IMG/VR virus record: IMGVR_UViG_3300002180_000017 | Location: 1-51,458 of that record | From: a virus | Length of the DNA stretch: 51,458 nucleotides | Strand: one strand, 5' to 3' | The notes under the pieces: generated by a model | What the model saw: the letters and a program-made list of their open reading frames with translations, nothing else | Database searches by the model: none | What the model was told of the DNA's origin: nothing | Made by a program: the position numbers and the translations under genes | Shown here: piece by piece, positions 3,068 to 51,458 of the stretch | Position numbering within the stretch: the stretch's first letter is position 1 | Layout: each line of letters starts with the position of its first letter

Positions 3068-3097
3068 TTGACAATATTGAATAGCTCAAGATATAAT
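3068..3097 (+). promoter_or_regulatory. sigma-70 promoter, rightward
   Basis: TTGACA (3068-3073), an 18-base spacer and TATAAT (3092-3097): both hexamers are perfect consensus. It points into the 580-base leader ahead of the early plus-strand genes and overlaps the divergent leftward promoter, so one regulator could control both. Confidence 0.7.
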
Positions 3098-3101
3098 TAA
3101 C

Positions 3102-3129
3102 TATATAATAACCACTCCATAGTTGTCAA
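3102..3129 (-). promoter_or_regulatory. sigma-70 promoter, leftward
   Basis: On the minus strand TTGACA (3129-3124), 16 bases, then TATATA (3107-3102). It lies about 54 bases before the HTH gene starting at 3048 and back to back with the rightward promoter. Confidence 0.6.
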
Positions 3130-4772: not shown

Positions 4773-4990
4773 TGACTACTGCCGAGCAAAAAACTTTTAT
4801 TGTAGAAGTTATAGAAGATATTAAAAAAGGCTTGCTAAGAAGAGCCGAGCAATACCCTGACAACTGGGACGGGGCAGAATTGAGGTGGCTAATCCGGGAT
4901 AAGTTCAGCGAGGTTGTTTTTCCTCACCACGATAAAAATTCACCAAGAAAAAAAGAGTATAAAAATGAGGTTTTAATTAATAATTTTTAA
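4772..4990 (+). CDS. small helical protein with AEQYPDNWDGAELR motif
   Basis: 72 residues. The motif RRAEQYPDNWDGAELRWLI is typical of a small uncharacterised family seen in phages and mobile gene cassettes. Mostly helical, basic C-terminus. The start codon overlaps the upstream stop (TAATG). Function unknown. Confidence 0.65.
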   Translation: MTTAEQKTFIVEVIEDIKKGLLRRAEQYPDNWDGAELRWLIRDKFSEVVFPHHDKNSPRKKEYKNEVLINNF

Positions 4991-15597: not shown

Positions 15598-15642
15598 TTG
15601 ACATTCTGTAATTAACTGTTATAATTATGTTTATTTACAGAA
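15598..15642 (+). promoter_or_regulatory. promoter of the replication unit with flanking operator
   Basis: TTGACA (15598-15603), 16 bases, TATAAT (15620-15625): a strong sigma-70 promoter. An 8-bp inverted repeat TTCTGTAA / TTACAGAA (15604-15611, 15635-15642) brackets the -10 box and is a natural operator. The first gene it drives, an HTH protein, could be an autoregulator. Confidence 0.65.
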
Positions 15643-17485: not shown

Positions 17486-18136
17486 TTGAGCATAAAAGAT
17501 ACATATCGTGTACAGAGTATAAAAAAGGAAGAATGCAAAGAATGGTTCTTGCATAAACATTATGCCCATCGTATGGCAAATATTATTTATGCTTTTGGTT
17601 TGTATTGTAGTAACGTCCTTTGTGGGGTGTGCTCTTTTGGCCCGGCTCCAAATATAAACACAAACAATATCGTTGGTGACGTGAAGGTTTATGAACTGAA
17701 TAGGCTTGTAATAAACCAGGATACGCCCAAGAACACATTGTCATTTTTTGTTTCAAAAGCATTGATTTCGCTTCCTACACCAACCTGTATAATTTCATAC
17801 GCAGACACGGGAAGAGGGCATCACGGGTACATTTATCAAGCAACGAATTGGATATATACTGGAGAAAGTTCCCCAGGGGGTGCCACCGAATTTGAAAAAG
17901 ATGGAATAATTTATCACGCACGAAATCTTTATGGTGAAAATTATGATAAAAATAAATTTATGTTTACGCCAATTCCAAGAAGCCCAAAACACAGATATTT
18001 TTACTTTTTAGGTAGCAAAAAACAGAAAAAAGAAATGTTGTCTAAGCTACCTTTCGCCGTGTTGCCATATCCGAAAGGCGATAATAAACGATATGACGCA
18101 AGTTATGAGGTTAGGACTCAACTATCTTTGTTGTAG
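17486..18136 (+). CDS. Mom-like DNA modification protein
   Basis: 216 residues from a TTG start (AGAGGGAG upstream). The pattern WFLHKHYAHRMANIIYAFGL...LCGVCSFGPAPN...YELNRLVINQDTPKNTLSFFVSKAL...ISYADTGRGHHGYIYQATNW matches the phage Mu Mom family, GNAT-like proteins that modify adenine to resist host restriction. The last dozen residues are encoded by one arm of a perfect hairpin, so the C-terminus may be cut or extended. It is the first gene after the replication block and the first of the accessory region. Confidence 0.8.
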   Translation: MSIKDTYRVQSIKKEECKEWFLHKHYAHRMANIIYAFGLYCSNVLCGVCSFGPAPNINTNNIVGDVKVYELNRLVINQDTPKNTLSFFVSKALISLPTPTCIISYADTGRGHHGYIYQATNWIYTGESSPGGATEFEKDGIIYHARNLYGENYDKNKFMFTPIPRSPKHRYFYFLGSKKQKKEMLSKLPFAVLPYPKGDNKRYDASYEVRTQLSLL

Positions 18137-18318: not shown

Positions 18319-18377
18319 CCATAACAAATCGTCAAAGCGGACGGGGGAAGATTCCACCGCTTAACTTAATATTATAA
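18319..18377 (+). repeat. attC-like site 1
   Basis: R''-like CCATAAC (18319-18325), L'' arm AAGCGG, inner hairpin GGAA/TTCC, L' arm CCGCTT followed by AACTTAA, R'-like TATTATA (about 18370). The layout TAACAA..AAGCGGAC..CCGCTTAAC is very close to class-1-type attC sites. Total about 59 bases. It separates a 16-codon frame from a 51-residue ORF. Confidence 0.65.
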
Positions 18378-23526: not shown

Positions 23527-23835
23527 ATGAGTAAGTTTAAAATATCAGTAATTGATTTTATCCCCGAAACCGGAAGGCATCCTATTGGTGAGGTCGATTC
23601 AAACGGTGAAGCCATCACGGTTGGTGATATCGTTACCCTGAATGGTGAAAAACATATGGTCGCTTATCGGTACGGTGACTTTGTACTCAAACAGCCGATG
23701 ACCATGCACACCCTTGGTATTTCAGATTGGTCTAAAACAACGAAACTAAACGAAATATGGTCAACGCCAGACAATATAGCATGTGGCGATATATCGGAAG
23801 CTTTTTATAATAGGGTTAAGCATTTGTGTGTATAA
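23527..23835 (+). CDS. small beta-rich protein, unknown function
   Basis: 102 residues from the ATG after CAGAGGAGGTCC. YopX-like feel (GDIVTLNGEKHMVAYRYGDF, FVLKQPMT) but too weak to assign. Last gene of the attC-free block; its stop TAA lies within the R'' end of the next attC-like site (GTATAACC). Confidence 0.55.
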   Translation: MSKFKISVIDFIPETGRHPIGEVDSNGEAITVGDIVTLNGEKHMVAYRYGDFVLKQPMTMHTLGISDWSKTTKLNEIWSTPDNIACGDISEAFYNRVKHLCV

Positions 23836-23885
23836 CCAGTAATTCCAGCCTTCCCAAACCACGGGCGGCTGATTTAACCATTAGG
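23830..23885 (+). repeat. attC-like site 6
   Basis: R''-like GTATAAC, left arm AAT-tc-CAGCC, right arm GGCTG-ATT, then TTAACC and R' CATTAGG (23879-23885). The left arm has a two-base bulge opposite nothing on the right, as the extrahelical bases of attC. About 56 bases. R' runs directly into AGGAGG. Confidence 0.7.
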
Positions 23886-23896
23886 AGGAAAATATA

Positions 23897-24207
23897 ATGA
23901 AGACTCCGAGACAACAACTGGATAAATTAGCACGATATTTGATCAATAATCATGGTGATATTGTCTGTGTTGACGATTTATCAAACGAAGAGGCCGTAGA
24001 TGAAGCGATCCGAGTAATGGAAGCTTTAACTGCCTTAAATATGAAATGGATCAGCGTAAAAGACGAATTGCCTGACAAATCAGATGATGTTTTACTGTGG
24101 AATGGAGCAGAAAGAGAAATATATCTCTGCTAACGAAAGAACACTTTGAAGCACATTATAAAGACATTACCCATTGGATGATATTACCAGAACCGCCGTC
24201 CTTATAA
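23897..24207 (+). pseudogene. DUF551 protein gene with a frameshift
   Basis: The first frame gives 78 residues ending WNGAEREIYLC then a stop; it includes the DUF551 opening WISVKDELPDKSDDVLLW. The next frame continues with TKEHFEAHYKDITHWMILPE and PPSL, the typical DUF551 end (THWM.LPEPP), and stops exactly in the R'' end of the next attC-like site. A one-base shift near 24118-24133 separates the halves. The intact product would be about 100 residues. Either the gene is dead, the frame is corrected, or the base is a sequencing error. Confidence 0.7.
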
Positions 24208-24257
24208 CCAAAAAACTTACCCGGCTAAAAAAAGAGCGGGTGATTTTGCAGTTTATG
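24201..24257 (+). repeat. attC-like site 7
   Basis: R''-like CTTATAAC (24201-24208), left arm AAACTTACCCG, right arm CGGGTGATTTT, R'-like GTTTATG (24251-24257). ACCCG (24219-24223) and CGGGT pair exactly. It contains the stop codon of the frameshifted DUF551 gene. About 57 bases. Confidence 0.65.
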
Positions 24258-24272
24258 CCATAGGAGGAAATT

Positions 24273-24671
24273 ATGAGGCATCAAGATAAAATCAACTGGA
24301 TGATTCAGTGGGCGCACAAAAATAAGTTGCGTCTTGAGCTTGAAGGTGAGTGTGGGTTTGGACGTGAATGTGTCGGAGTTGTCGCAGATACGGTTGGATA
24401 CCCGGATTATGAGTGGTCGGACGACAAAACATGGGAACGCCTCGATGAGAATGGAGAGGTTTGGACACCAGAAGACGCTTACCACAAACACCCCTGCGTT
24501 GCGGTTCTTGGCCGTGGGGTTGATGTGGAGGGGCAGCTTTACGATTGGCTCAAGTGGTTCGAAGCTAATAACTTCGTGGTCGAAACCGGGCAAACCAAAA
24601 AGAAGAACCTTAATTCAATACATATTATGCTTGGAAAACACAGATATGCCAGAATGGTTAAACAGGCATAA
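24273..24671 (+). CDS. small cassette protein, unknown function
   Basis: 132 residues. MRHQDKINWMIQWAHKNKLR, then ELEGECGFGRECVGVVADTV and a Tyr/Trp/Asp-rich YEWSDDKTWERLDENG. I have seen this 'GRECVG' pattern in uncharacterised phage proteins. ATAGGAGG precedes the ATG. Its stop TAA is the TAA of the GCATAAC core of the next attC-like site, as in true cassettes. Confidence 0.6.
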   Translation: MRHQDKINWMIQWAHKNKLRLELEGECGFGRECVGVVADTVGYPDYEWSDDKTWERLDENGEVWTPEDAYHKHPCVAVLGRGVDVEGQLYDWLKWFEANNFVVETGQTKKKNLNSIHIMLGKHRYARMVKQA

Positions 24672-24722
24672 CAAATCATTCCATCCGACCGAAAAGCACG
24701 GCGGCTGATTTAACCATTATGC
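24666..24722 (+). repeat. attC-like site 8 (best example)
   Basis: R'' GCATAAC (24666-24672), arm AAATCA (24673-24678), bulges, CCG-a-CCG (24685-24691), loop, CGGCGG (24699-24704), CT, TGATTT (24706-24711), AACC, R' ATTATGC (24716-24722). All arms pair: GCATAA with TTATGC, AAATCA with TGATTT, CCGaCCG with CGGCGG. Extra left-side bases TT and A are the bulges that attC sites use. 57 bases. Confidence 0.75.
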
Positions 24723-24869
24723 GCCAGAAAGAGAAAGATGCTTGCCAGCAACCCCACTGTGCAGGGGAGACCATGACCTTTACCGAACCGGATGGCGCCG
24801 GTAGATGATGAATATCGCAAAGTAAAGGTGGGCGTTTGAAGCCCTTAAAATCGGGTGCAGTGGCGCATA
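24718..24869 (+). ncRNA. noncoding folded cassette B
   Basis: No ORF with a ribosome site. Inverted repeat TATGCGCCA (24718-24726) and TGGCGCATA (24861-24869) closes it. Inside: CCCC...GGGG (AACCCCACTGTGCAGGGGAG), ACCTTTAC pairing with GTAAAGGT across about 50 bases, CCGG...CCGG, and GGGC...GCCC. The nested stems strongly suggest a folded RNA. The outer ends equal those of cassette A and the Mom-end repeat. I do not recognise a known riboswitch or RNA family. Confidence 0.55.
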
Positions 24870-24895
24870 GCTAACAAATAATAGCTTTTTATTAA
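24864..24895 (+). repeat. weak attC-like end
   Basis: GCATAGCTAAC is R''-like; AAATAAT and TTTTTATTAAAG on the right may pair and end in ATTAAAG. Too short and AT-rich to be sure. It separates folded cassette B from the membrane-protein ORF. Confidence 0.3.
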
Positions 24896-27175: not shown

Positions 27176-27194
27176 TATACTTGGAGACCCAAGA

Positions 27195-27485
27195 ATGAAC
27201 AAAAATCCCTACGGTGACATTTTGCTTGAATTATAATCCGGGTTATAGGAGCATGACTGTAGAATTGAGGAAGGAATTGCCGAGCCATATGGGTTCACCA
27301 ACCAGCATTTCCATGCCTGTCTAAAAATTTTCATGGATGCTTTTCTCTGGAAAATATTGGAAAATATGAAAGACGAAAAAGACAATGGGAAAAAAGCGGA
27401 CGTAGTTCAAAAAGCGGGGGAAGCATTGAGAAAAATTATCCTTGAATTTACGGGGATTGATCCTCATGAGCTTCATAAAAGTTAA
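27195..27485 (+). pseudogene. small conserved gene interrupted by two in-frame stops
   Basis: In one frame: MNKNPYGDILLEL, TAA, SGL, TAG, then EHDCRIEEGIAEPYGFTNQH and onwards to a stop (about 95 codons). The part after the stops is clearly coding, and the N-terminal piece fits as its start (small phage proteins with PYGD.L.EL..SG..EHD..). The TTGGAGACC ribosome site lies before the ATG. Two nonsense codons (one UAA, one UAG) in nine bases suggest decay, not recoding. Confidence 0.65.
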
Positions 27486-27754: not shown

Positions 27755-28228
27755 ATGATGTTTTTAGATAGGTTTGATTCAGTCTCAGAGTTGCGAGGCA
27801 AAAATAGGACTTACGAAAACATAAAGAAGGCTGTTCTGAAAGCAGGCAGATTCTCGGTTTTCGATGTTAAGACAAAAGAGGACAAAATATTATTCACACG
27901 CCTTTGTAATGATCCTGATCTTGAAATTTACAAAAAGGAATACCCATGGACGTATGTGAGAAGCCGAAACAATATCCCCATTTCAAGTAAGCTGTATTTA
28001 GAAGGAAAAGCGATTAAGTGGTGTGCCGATAACGATAGGACTTCAAGCCCGTTCAATGTTATCTCTGCGTTGTGCGCTATGGGGTGGATAAAGGAGGAGG
28101 TTCGCCAATATCAATTATTAGTTGGTAAATGGAAAGCACAAGCTGATAAAACGGCTGACGAACGGGAACAAATGTGGTTATACGCTTGTGCGTCAGATTT
28201 GGAATCATTAATTAGACAGTCCCACTAA
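27755..28228 (+). CDS. cassette protein, unknown function
   Basis: 157 residues, with charged and helical parts; KIEVFDVK-like VFDVKTKEDKILFTRLCNDP and a WTYVRSRNNIPISSKLYLEG segment. A central CADNDRTSSPFNVISALCAMGWIKEEV stretch looks like a winged helix. AAGGAGTACCC precedes the ATG. It stops in the R'' end of the next attC-like site (CACTAAC). Confidence 0.5.
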   Translation: MMFLDRFDSVSELRGKNRTYENIKKAVLKAGRFSVFDVKTKEDKILFTRLCNDPDLEIYKKEYPWTYVRSRNNIPISSKLYLEGKAIKWCADNDRTSSPFNVISALCAMGWIKEEVRQYQLLVGKWKAQADKTADEREQMWLYACASDLESLIRQSH

Positions 28229-28284
28229 CAATCGCATCCACACAGATGCCATACTACCGGCGCGGGTGATGCAAAATTTTATGC
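28223..28284 (+). repeat. attC-like site 11
   Basis: R'' CACTAAC (28223-28229) then AATC, arm GCATC (28234-28238), bulge, loop, arm GATGC (28268-28272), AAAA, R'-like TTTATGC (28278-28284). GCATC and GATGC pair exactly. The TAA of R'' is the stop codon of the preceding gene. About 62 bases. Confidence 0.65.
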
Positions 28285-28308: not shown

Positions 28309-28539
28309 ATGTCAAGCACATTAAATCCAAGCGAAGCTGTTTATGGTTTTGCAGCATGGTTAACGACCCGGAGTGAAAAAACGGTAATGTCTGCCTCGAA
28401 TGATGCAGCACCAATTGCTGACCTTGTAAAGCAATTTTGTGAAACAAACTCTTTGCCGGAGATATCGGAACATTGGCCAGATAATTTAATACATCCAACT
28501 GGTGAAGTGGCAGTGCCGGAAATTGTGCATAACCAATAA
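28309..28539 (+). CDS. small cassette protein, unknown function
   Basis: 76 residues: MSSTLNPSEAVYGFAAWLTT, helical with an acidic C-terminus. AAAGGAGAATAAAT precedes the ATG. No family recognised. The last residues (VHNQ) are coded inside the R'' end of the next attC-like site. Confidence 0.55.
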   Translation: MSSTLNPSEAVYGFAAWLTTRSEKTVMSASNDAAPIADLVKQFCETNSLPEISEHWPDNLIHPTGEVAVPEIVHNQ

Positions 28540-28587
28540 ATGCACTGGACGGCAAACAGCCGCCGCCCGTGATTAAAGACGATAACG
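28526..28587 (+). repeat. attC-like site 12
   Basis: R''-like TGCATAAC, AATAAAT, arms CACtGGaCGGC and GCCGcCCGTG that pair with single-base bulges, then ATTAAAGAC and a mutated R' (GATAACGC rather than GTTA). About 62 bases. The altered R' would probably weaken recombination. Confidence 0.55.
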
Positions 28588-28602
28588 CTTGGAGGTAAAA
28601 CA

Positions 28603-28818
28603 ATGTGCGGAATGCCAACGGAAGATGAAATATTAAAACTCCAAAAAGAAGGGCATACTTTTCATTGTGCTATGCGAATTTTAACAGGCGACGGTGAATG
28701 TGAGTGCGGCAAAAAAGACTTCATCCCAAGTGGCATTTCCCGTGCAATGTATAAGGGACGCTGCCCCGTTTGCTTAAAAAGCGAAGGGCATACTCCGTGG
28801 TGTAGAAACGCAGGGTAA
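28603..28818 (+). CDS. small zinc-ribbon cassette protein
   Basis: 71 residues. GECECGKKDFIPSGISRAMY followed by CPVCLKSEGHTPWC gives CxCG and CPxC pairs for a zinc ribbon. CTTGGAGGTAAAAC precedes the ATG. Last gene before the small minus-strand RNA element. Confidence 0.6.
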   Translation: MCGMPTEDEILKLQKEGHTFHCAMRILTGDGECECGKKDFIPSGISRAMYKGRCPVCLKSEGHTPWCRNAG

Positions 28819-28821
28819 CAT

Positions 28822-28882
28822 AAAAAAAGGGCCTTTCGGCCCCCGATGGCAAGTCACCATCCACCTCCATGATTATGGATTA
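28822..28882 (-). ncRNA. candidate three-hairpin small RNA
   Basis: Minus strand, 5' to 3': TCCAT-aatc-ATGGA (28879-28866), GATGG-tgacttg-CCATC (28861-28845), GGGCC-gaaa-GGCCC (28842-28829) and seven Ts (28828-28822), a rho-independent end. A consensus promoter ends just upstream, placing +1 near 28881-28882, directly before the first stem. So the whole 60-base unit is promoter, three stems, terminator and nothing else. It is convergent to the cassette genes and could act as an antisense, sponge or regulatory RNA. Confidence 0.65.
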
Positions 28883-28887
28883 AAAAC

Positions 28888-28916
28888 AGTGTACTAAATT
28901 TGCTTATTGTTGTCAA
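28888..28916 (-). promoter_or_regulatory. promoter of the small RNA
   Basis: Minus strand TTGACA (28916-28911), a 17-base spacer and TACACT (28893-28888), close to sigma-70 consensus. It lies in the 133-base gap before the HigA-type gene and points back to the array. Confidence 0.65.
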
Positions 28917-28951
28917 TACTTAATTAGCTTGTTCCAAAGGGAGGTTTTGCA

Positions 28952-29260
28952 ATGATACAACATAAACCATTTATTCTTATAGGTCCGGGAGATACTATTC
29001 AGGAAGAAATCACTGCAAGAGGATGGAGCCAGCAATACTTCGCAGAAGTTATTAATATGTCCTCGAAGTCAGTAAATTTATTGATTAACAACAAGCAACC
29101 GATTACCCTTGAAATGGCATCACGGTTAAGCAAAGTCTTTGGGCAGTCCGTTCAATTTTGGCTGAATCAAGATGCAATTTATCGAGAACATTTAGATTGG
29201 CAATTTATCCCAAAGTGTAGAAAAAGGAGAGGAGAAAAAATGAAGGAGGAAAGGAGGTGA
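28952..29260 (+). CDS. orphan HigA-type antitoxin
   Basis: 102 residues. PGDTIQEEITARGWSQQYFA, then EVINMSSKSVNLLINNKQPI and TLEMASRLSKVFGQSVQFWL: the XRE helix-turn-helix of HigA antitoxins, which bind a RelE-like HigB toxin and their own promoter. No toxin gene is adjacent on either side. An antitoxin alone could neutralise a host toxin or act as a regulator. GGGAGGTTTTGC precedes the ATG; the basic tail reads into the next RBS. Confidence 0.75.
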   Translation: MIQHKPFILIGPGDTIQEEITARGWSQQYFAEVINMSSKSVNLLINNKQPITLEMASRLSKVFGQSVQFWLNQDAIYREHLDWQFIPKCRKRRGEKMKEERR

Positions 29261-29264
29261 TATT

Positions 29265-29504
29265 GTGGAATTTGGTAGAGCAATAGAGCATAAGATTATC
29301 ATTGAACCAACAAGTAACAAGGGTTTTTATGTTCGTGTAGGGTGTGGAAGATTTTCTTTTAGTAACAACGAAGATCTTTTGCAAGGGTTAAGAGATTATC
29401 TTGTTAATCCTGAGAAGTTGGAAAAGGAATATAACAGATTACAATCTCAACTAGAAGAAGTAGCCCGTGAACCAGTAGAAGATCCACCTATTACAGTAAC
29501 ATAA
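29265..29504 (+). CDS. small protein, unknown function
   Basis: 79 residues from GTG with AAGGAGGTGATATT upstream. Beta-rich N-terminus (GFYVRVGCGRFSFSNNEDLL) and a helical C-terminus with a coiled look. No family recognised. Last rightward gene before the convergent hairpin. Confidence 0.55.
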   Translation: MEFGRAIEHKIIIEPTSNKGFYVRVGCGRFSFSNNEDLLQGLRDYLVNPEKLEKEYNRLQSQLEEVAREPVEDPPITVT

Positions 29505-29511
29505 AGCAAAG

Positions 29512-29548
29512 GGCTTGCTACCTACAGAGCATACGTAGGTAGCAAGCC
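29512..29548. terminator. bidirectional terminator-like hairpin
   Basis: GGCTTGCTACCTAC and GTAGGTAGCAAGCC pair perfectly (14 bp) around a 9-base loop, exactly between the last plus-strand and last minus-strand genes. A strict T-run is lacking on both sides, so it is probably a factor-assisted or weak terminator that insulates the convergent transcription units. Confidence 0.6.
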
Positions 29549-29557
29549 ACAGAACTA

Positions 29558-29761
29558 TTAATTATCGTCATCCGGGATATTAAACGTAGCCCGAATCATA
29601 TCGCAGATAGGCAGAACACTTTTGTCGTCTATCTTGTTTTCACTGTTTATCACTGCATCCTCAGCGAAGTCTAACAGCTTATCGGCAAATGACCTTAATA
29701 GTTCCGGGGTTAACAGCCCCATTAACATTTCAATCAAATATACTAATAACTTGGTTTTCAT
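29558..29761 (-). CDS. small phage protein next to lysis genes
   Basis: 67 residues from the ATG after GGGAGGTG (a GTG four codons earlier is also possible). Helical, with a hydrophobic N-terminus (LLVYLIEMLMGLLTPELL) that could be a membrane-associated helix and an acidic C-terminus. No family recognised. Most distal gene of the minus-strand late unit. Confidence 0.5.
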   Translation of the reverse strand: MKTKLLVYLIEMLMGLLTPELLRSFADKLLDFAEDAVINSENKIDDKSVLPICDMIRATFNIPDDDN

Positions 29762-29781
29762 GTAATTCAACACCTCCCTTC

Positions 29782-30030
29782 TTATTCAGATTCTTCCATT
29801 CTTAATTCCTGATATGTTTTTTTCCCAAAATATTTACGGGGATTCCCGCAGGCATGGCAAGAGCAACGCACCTTTGTCTTTCGATAGCCTCCCAGTATCC
29901 AGTTAATGTGGTTTTCTCCCGAAAAATGTTCTCTTTCTTCTCCAGAAAGCGTATCAGGGTAATGCCCATGATATTTCTTGAAAGTTTTCCTTGCTATTCT
30001 GTTAGCAACTTGCAAACGATTATAGTTCAT
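29782..30030 (-). CDS. small CxCxxCGNPRK-type protein
   Basis: 82 residues. VRCSCHACGNPRKYFGKKTY is a signature of short uncharacterised phage proteins in Gram-negative hosts (C.C..CGNPR..G...). Basic N-terminus. A metal site from C, C, C and H is possible. The start overlaps the end of the holin gene by 11 bases. Function unknown. Confidence 0.6.
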   Translation of the reverse strand: MNYNRLQVANRIARKTFKKYHGHYPDTLSGEEREHFSGENHINWILGGYRKTKVRCSCHACGNPRKYFGKKTYQELRMEESE

Positions 30031-51314: not shown

Positions 51315-51458
51315 TTAAATAGTTCGTAATATCTGGTGTGGCATTTTCATCTTTGGGTGGCAAATCAATCTTGCTCCAACCTCTTTAGCTTTAATGCTGA
51401 AACAAAGGTCTTGTCCCATTGCAAACTCTGTCGCAACATAAAATTGTCCCAATCTGTT
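51315..51458 (-). CDS. partial gene, possible glycosyltransferase C-terminus
   Basis: 47 residues run off the window edge: NRLGQFYVATEFAMGQDLCF, then SIKAKEVGARLICHPK. The (M/G)G.D..F...A...G ...C(D/H)P pattern recalls the C-terminal part of family-2 glycosyltransferases. The gene's start lies outside the window. Assignment is tentative. Confidence 0.45.
   Translation of the reverse strand, partial: NRLGQFYVATEFAMGQDLCFSIKAKEVGARLICHPKMKMPHQILRTI

Follow-up and report, generated by a model that had tools for sequence, protein, structure and literature searches.

The window analysed here (51,458 nucleotides, IMGVR_UViG_3300002180_000017, positions 1 to 51,458, to which all coordinates refer) carries in one intergenic gap 95 bases in which a promoter is closely followed by a strong terminator, opposite in direction to the early genes on both sides. 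The question raised by this locus is whether such a unit makes a small RNA and, if so, on which transcript it could act. A preliminary description had proposed a self-contained RNA of three hairpins at the end of a gene array, serving to control the cassette transcripts, to silence read-through, or as partner of a neighbouring orphan antitoxin.

The reading preferred here, which we hold tentatively, is that of a lineage-specific promoter for the host RNA polymerase with an intrinsic terminator, together making one untranslated cis-antisense RNA of about 61 nt. Transcription of the unit, its start site and every functional step are what we infer from the sequence.

Features of the promoter-terminator unit

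The anatomy of the minus strand from 28916 to 28822 was given correctly in the preliminary description: TTGACA-17-TACACT, two small stems, GGGCC-GAAA-GGCCC and seven Ts are read directly (Table 1). The -35 hexamer (TTGACA, 28916-28911) is perfect, the spacer has 17 nt, and the -10 hexamer (TACACT, 28893-28888) retains its key positions. From the position of the promoter the transcription start is predicted at about 28882-28880 on the minus strand, and the GC-rich stem with its T-run of seven lies some 46-60 nt downstream of the promoter; this is the strongest clean minus-strand terminator of the early region. Minus-strand open reading frames of 20-49 aa in the unit all cross the promoter or the terminator and none is credible as a small protein; a coding minus strand was rejected because the 49-aa and 28-aa frames cross the terminator into the antisense of P0001.

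Table 1. Features of the unit and its surroundings, in window positions
Feature	Position	Strand	Basis or remark
Whole unit	28916-28822	-	95 bases; promoter closely followed by strong terminator, opposite the early genes
Sigma-70-type promoter TTGACA-17-TACACT (10/12)	28888..28916	-	sequence reading
Predicted RNA of ~61 nt, UAAUCCAUAAUCAUGGAGGUGGAUGGUGACUUGCCAUCGGGGGCCGAAAGGCCCUUUUUUU	28822..28882	-	predicted from promoter position and terminator
Stem-loop 1, UCCAU/AUGGA, 5 bp	28866..28879	-	28879-28875 pairs with 28870-28866
Stem-loop 2, GAUGGU/GCCAUC, 5 bp and one G-U	28845..28861	-	28861-28856 pairs with 28850-28845
Intrinsic terminator GGGCC-GAAA-GGCCC + T7	28822..28842	-	hairpin 28842-28829, T7 28828-28822
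P0001, 71-aa Cys-rich, charged phage protein	28603..28818	+	stop codon 3 bases from unit end
P0002, HigA-family antitoxin-like Xre regulator, HTH part only	28952..29260	+	TIGR02607, PF01381
P0003	29265..29504	+	next gene after P0002
15-bp hairpin	29512..29548	-	weak or broken U-tract on minus strand only; between converging early and late genes

Promoters of the TTGACA/TATAAT type occur elsewhere in the virus, with TTGACA-18-TATAAT at 3068 (+), TTGACA-16-TATAAT at 15598 (+) and TTGACA-18-TATAGT at 3129 (-), and the sister phage described below keeps a face-to-face promoter pair at the matching switch region and a promoter like that at 15598 at the matching place. With such consensus promoters in both phages, the promoter type of the unit is one in use. 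At 3068-3129, where the early plus-strand genes begin, two near-consensus promoters overlap face to face; their equivalent in the sister phage lies at 25385 (+) and 25439 (-).

The predicted fold of the RNA contains exactly three hairpins (-24.2 kcal/mol, z -2.91; none of 200 shuffles was as stable), with most of the energy coming from the terminator. The two 5' stems, folded alone as the 40 nt before the terminator, are no better than shuffles (z -0.93; 38 of 200 equal). A scan for promoters of at least 10/12 with a GC-rich stem and T-run no more than 150 nt downstream delivered one pair in the 51-kb window, against a mean of 0.03 per window in 30 dinucleotide shuffles of the window. On one strand of 70 bp with matched dinucleotide composition, a promoter of at least 10/12 arises with P = 0.009, or with P = 0.0024 if a perfect TTGACA is required. 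Being post hoc, these chance figures for promoter and terminator are moderate and not strong evidence. The promoter-terminator pair exceeds chance and the 5' stems do not. What stands of the proposed three-hairpin RNA is thus a putative one-RNA unit opposite the early genes, but its fold is special at the terminator only.

Genomic position and neighbouring genes

The early genes occupy the plus strand between about 3.1 and 29.5 kb; the late genes are on the minus strand and run leftward from 51 kb to about 30.9 kb. The unit sits between P0001 and P0002 in a non-coding gap of 133 bp (28819-28951), which is long for a densely packed gene series. It had been placed at the end of the array, in opposite direction; the direction is as described, but the position is not the very end, since P0002 and P0003 follow. 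The hairpin at 29512-29548 is the probable terminator of the minus-strand late genes, and the terminator of the unit would be a second minus-strand stop downstream of it.

P0001 gave no family match in Pfam, PHROGs, NCBIfam or PADLOC; relatives at 71% and 61% were found in two other phage contigs (L005 and L023). L023 holds an apparent second partial copy of the family at about 4773-4964. P0002 matches NCBIfam TIGR02607 with 49.8 bits, above the cut-off of 47.7, and its first 81 residues share 43% identity with longer proteins of two gut phages; it resembles the N-terminal HTH part of 351-aa regulators in the human-gut phages PV036430 and PV036448. The ribosome site of P0002, GGAGGU, lies at about 28939-28944 (+). 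A HigB-like toxin (PF05015) was not found in either record of the virus, so the designation of P0002 as an orphan antitoxin stands as far as tested. The suggested partnership of the RNA with this antitoxin is positional only. The RNA would cover neither the ribosome site nor the start of P0002.

Linkers resembling integron attC sites occur between small early genes at 18322-18370, 23833-23880, 24205-24260, 24666-24722, 28226-28282 and 28531-28590; examples are GCATAACAAATCATTCCATCCGACCGAAAAGCACGGCGGCTGATTTAACCATTATGC in the window and TAACAAAAAAAATGCAGCGGACGCAAAGGGACTGCGCCGCTGATTTTGGCGTTA at about 1494-1430 (-) in the sister phage. Strict attC scans performed no better than on shuffles, and looser ones were only marginally above. 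No such linker was seen within 28819-28951, the last two of those listed being the nearest upstream candidates, and the unit hairpin was rejected as an attC site by inspection, as it is without the R''/R' boxes of the other linkers. Tyrosine recombinase or integrase domains were not detected in the records examined; integrase-less attC clusters are known in virulent phages (PMC9892861). The early-gene array is at most a putative integron array. The gene at 17486-18136, adjoining the replication genes, encodes a Mom-like DNA modification protein (phrog_1384, E 2e-53).

Conservation and relatives

At the gathering score Rfam gave no matches in the window, with the best sub-threshold matches at chance level. 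BLASTN searches of phages and plasmids with the unit as query returned chance-level pieces only, and exact and relaxed patterns of the core found the same virus only in viral and bacterial genome collections. The RNA core is present among viral contigs only in IMGVR_UViG_3300002180_000018, 100% identical over 13.9 kb around the unit; because of this identity, and because it extends the genome leftward, this record is the same virus and supplies no independent evidence.

The genome to which the window belongs measures about 66 kb; leftward of base 1, IMGVR_UViG_3300002180_000018 adds 16.3 kb, where the terminase and other large minus-strand open reading frames are located. Bases 1473-1616 of that record match the right end of the window (51315-51458) at 93%, which suggests that the map is circular or permuted, one segment of it being variable.

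Relatives were sought through P0001, P0002, a 395-aa gene and the terminase. A sister phage, IMGVR_UViG_3300027852_000003 (67.5 kb), was reached via the terminase (91% identical); in its late genes it largely keeps the order of the window, and DNA identities there are mostly 70-86%. Matches to the unit, to P0002 and to P0003 are all absent from it, and its junction of early and late genes holds no comparable promoter-terminator unit and no such terminator. No such unit was found beside the P0001 homologues of L005 and L023 either. As far as the searched collections show, the unit appears to be specific to this virus. A lack of conserved stems in related phages had been named by the preliminary description as part of what would refute the unit; the one close relative found, the sister phage, is without the unit but also without the neighbouring genes, and its testimony against the unit counts only half.

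Small early genes of the window between 13.8 and 27.5 kb are reordered in the sister phage, as if cassettes had been shuffled: 24040-24271 corresponds to 15878-15645, 24719-24870 to 6714-6567 and 27190-27473 to 16343-16060, and 25182-25618 matches an inverted copy at 29483-29919.

Comparison with known RNA classes

In phage P22 the sar RNA sits between two cistrons of an operon, with its own promoter and terminator, and the OOP RNA of phage lambda overlaps the cII coding sequence. These cis-antisense RNAs regulate neighbouring phage genes, sar (68/69 nt) as a short antisense RNA acting on the gene next to it and OOP (77 nt) as a short RNA that is transcribed leftward from a promoter of its own and is antisense to one of the early transcripts (PMC12197685). 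At the level of sequence, the unit shares with this class a promoter of its own and an intrinsic terminator opposite a phage mRNA; complementarity to a target coding sequence or ribosome site is absent, as the unit lies wholly in an untranslated gap. Its putative RNA resembles sar as a short antisense RNA next to a gene, a likeness of design only, no sequence relation having been tested or being claimed. Unlike sar, which pairs with the ant mRNA and blocks its translation start, it would come no closer than about 56 nt to the P0002 ribosome site. It may likewise be compared with OOP, which is also a short RNA with a promoter of its own and opposes an early transcript, but OOP acts on the cII mRNA and triggers cleavage by RNase III, whereas the RNA of the unit would overlap untranslated sequence only.

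Two RNAs or promoters of integrons offer a further comparison. Cassette F1 of Vibrio fischeri carries an antisense promoter at the far end of an integron array that can silence upstream cassettes (PMC11014356). The promoter of the unit faces its gene array from the far end in the same way, but transcription from F1 can run back into the upstream cassette, and here the terminator would stop it after about 60 nt, confined to the gap. The small RNA sRNA-Xcc1 of a Xanthomonas integron cassette is oriented against its array (PMC12444791), as the RNA of the unit would be; unlike the unit, a singleton in what is at most a putative integron array, sRNA-Xcc1 is trans-acting and its cassette occurs with symE in 13 species. 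Two toxin-antitoxin classes were rejected: type I, because no small hydrophobic toxin frame lies opposite and only P0001 (Cys-rich, charged) and P0002 (HTH) are nearby, and type III (ToxI-like), because the unit has no repeats and no gene follows the terminator on the same strand. Overall the unit resembles ordinary phage antisense RNAs, which makes the RNA plausible but unremarkable.

Proposed mechanism and alternative explanations

In the preferred reading, the RNA from 28882 to 28822 (-) would be a perfect complement of the untranslated P0001-P0002 gap in early plus-strand mRNA that reads through it, with a computed energy of -124 kcal/mol for the 61-nt duplex. Firing of the polymerase and collision, or the short RNA duplex in the gap, could then interfere with the read-through mRNA or lead to its cleavage just upstream of the HigA-like P0002, by which P0002 and P0003 would be insulated from the long early operon. 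The RNA would end before the coding sequence of P0001 and begin some 56 nt away from the ribosome site of P0002, so that the start of neither gene could be masked, and its effect would most likely be local at most. Silencing of read-through, as proposed earlier, is conceivable in this sense, but not as antisense to the cassette genes, since the terminator would stop the RNA after about 60 nt and before the gene at 28603-28818. Control of the whole array is unsupported. Pairing of the RNA with 65 ribosome-site regions of the phage, a check along the lines proposed in the preliminary description, is no better than chance (best site -23.0; shuffled RNAs average -23.6, and 108 of 200 equal the real one). 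The rarity of the promoter and terminator combination, its place exactly within the non-coding gap of a dense gene series and the lack of a credible small protein argue for this cis-antisense reading; 5' stems equal to shuffles, the absence of the unit from the sister phage and from the relatives of P0001, and an RNA that misses the P0002 ribosome site, unlike sar on ant, argue against it.

The main rival is that the hairpin with seven Ts is a second intrinsic terminator, halting leftward late transcription that gets past the imperfect terminator at 29512-29548 before it becomes antisense to the early genes, with a promoter-like sequence in the AT-rich gap that is fortuitous or weak. The late genes do run leftward to about 30.9 kb, and the hairpin at 29548-29512 has a broken U-tract (CTTTGCTTTA), which makes this a serious rival; the next good minus-strand terminator is that of the unit, and it is the only part of the unit with a clearly special fold. 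A second stop would, however, be expected beside the first and not at a distance of about 670 bp with two early genes in between, the junction of the sister phage has no such terminator, and a promoter of at least 10/12 in the 70 bp upstream has a chance of only 0.9%. We regard this explanation as somewhat unlikely. Clearly less probable is an assembly by chance of neighbouring promoter-like and terminator-like sequences in non-coding DNA with no selected function. A whole-window probability of about 1 in 30 for a unit chosen post hoc, the 5' stems and the lack of the unit in any relative would fit it, but the high quality of the terminator and the length of the gap for such a gene series would not.

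Two further explanations give the RNA other roles. That it acts in trans on host mRNAs in an Hfq-dependent style is improbable: its end in seven Ts is in line with the T-run of at least seven typical of Hfq-binding sRNAs (PMC5558911), and besides a GGAGGUGG motif it would carry GGUG in an unpaired segment, but there is no excess of targets among the phage's own ribosome sites, and the motif, being Shine-Dalgarno-like, would pair with 16S rRNA tails and not mask ribosome sites. Alternatively, the same motif could cover ACCUCC (28864-28869, +) in the leader and so free the GGAGGU site of P0002. The minimum-free-energy fold of the leader pairs ACCUCC with this site at a probability of 0.34-0.80, varying with the stretch folded, and masking the leader raises the openness of the site in the longest stretch from 0.16 to 0.62; in two shorter ones it reaches only about 0.21 (from 0.08 and from 0.15), 15 of 200 shuffled leaders (7.5%) close the site as well, and the fold of the whole leader is ordinary (z -0.86). 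Such a switch, in which a Shine-Dalgarno-like cis-antisense RNA would bind an anti-Shine-Dalgarno segment and act positively on the orphan antitoxin P0002 where a reshuffling array of early genes ends, is very improbable.

Biological significance

The unit is a candidate addition to the known class of phage antisense RNAs, and general views would be unchanged even if it is transcribed. In that case it would add to the phage antisense RNAs restricted to one lineage, at a point where the long early array gives way to an orphan antitoxin gene. As the unit, P0002 and P0003 are all missing from the sister phage, it would show units of this kind to come and go with accessory genes.
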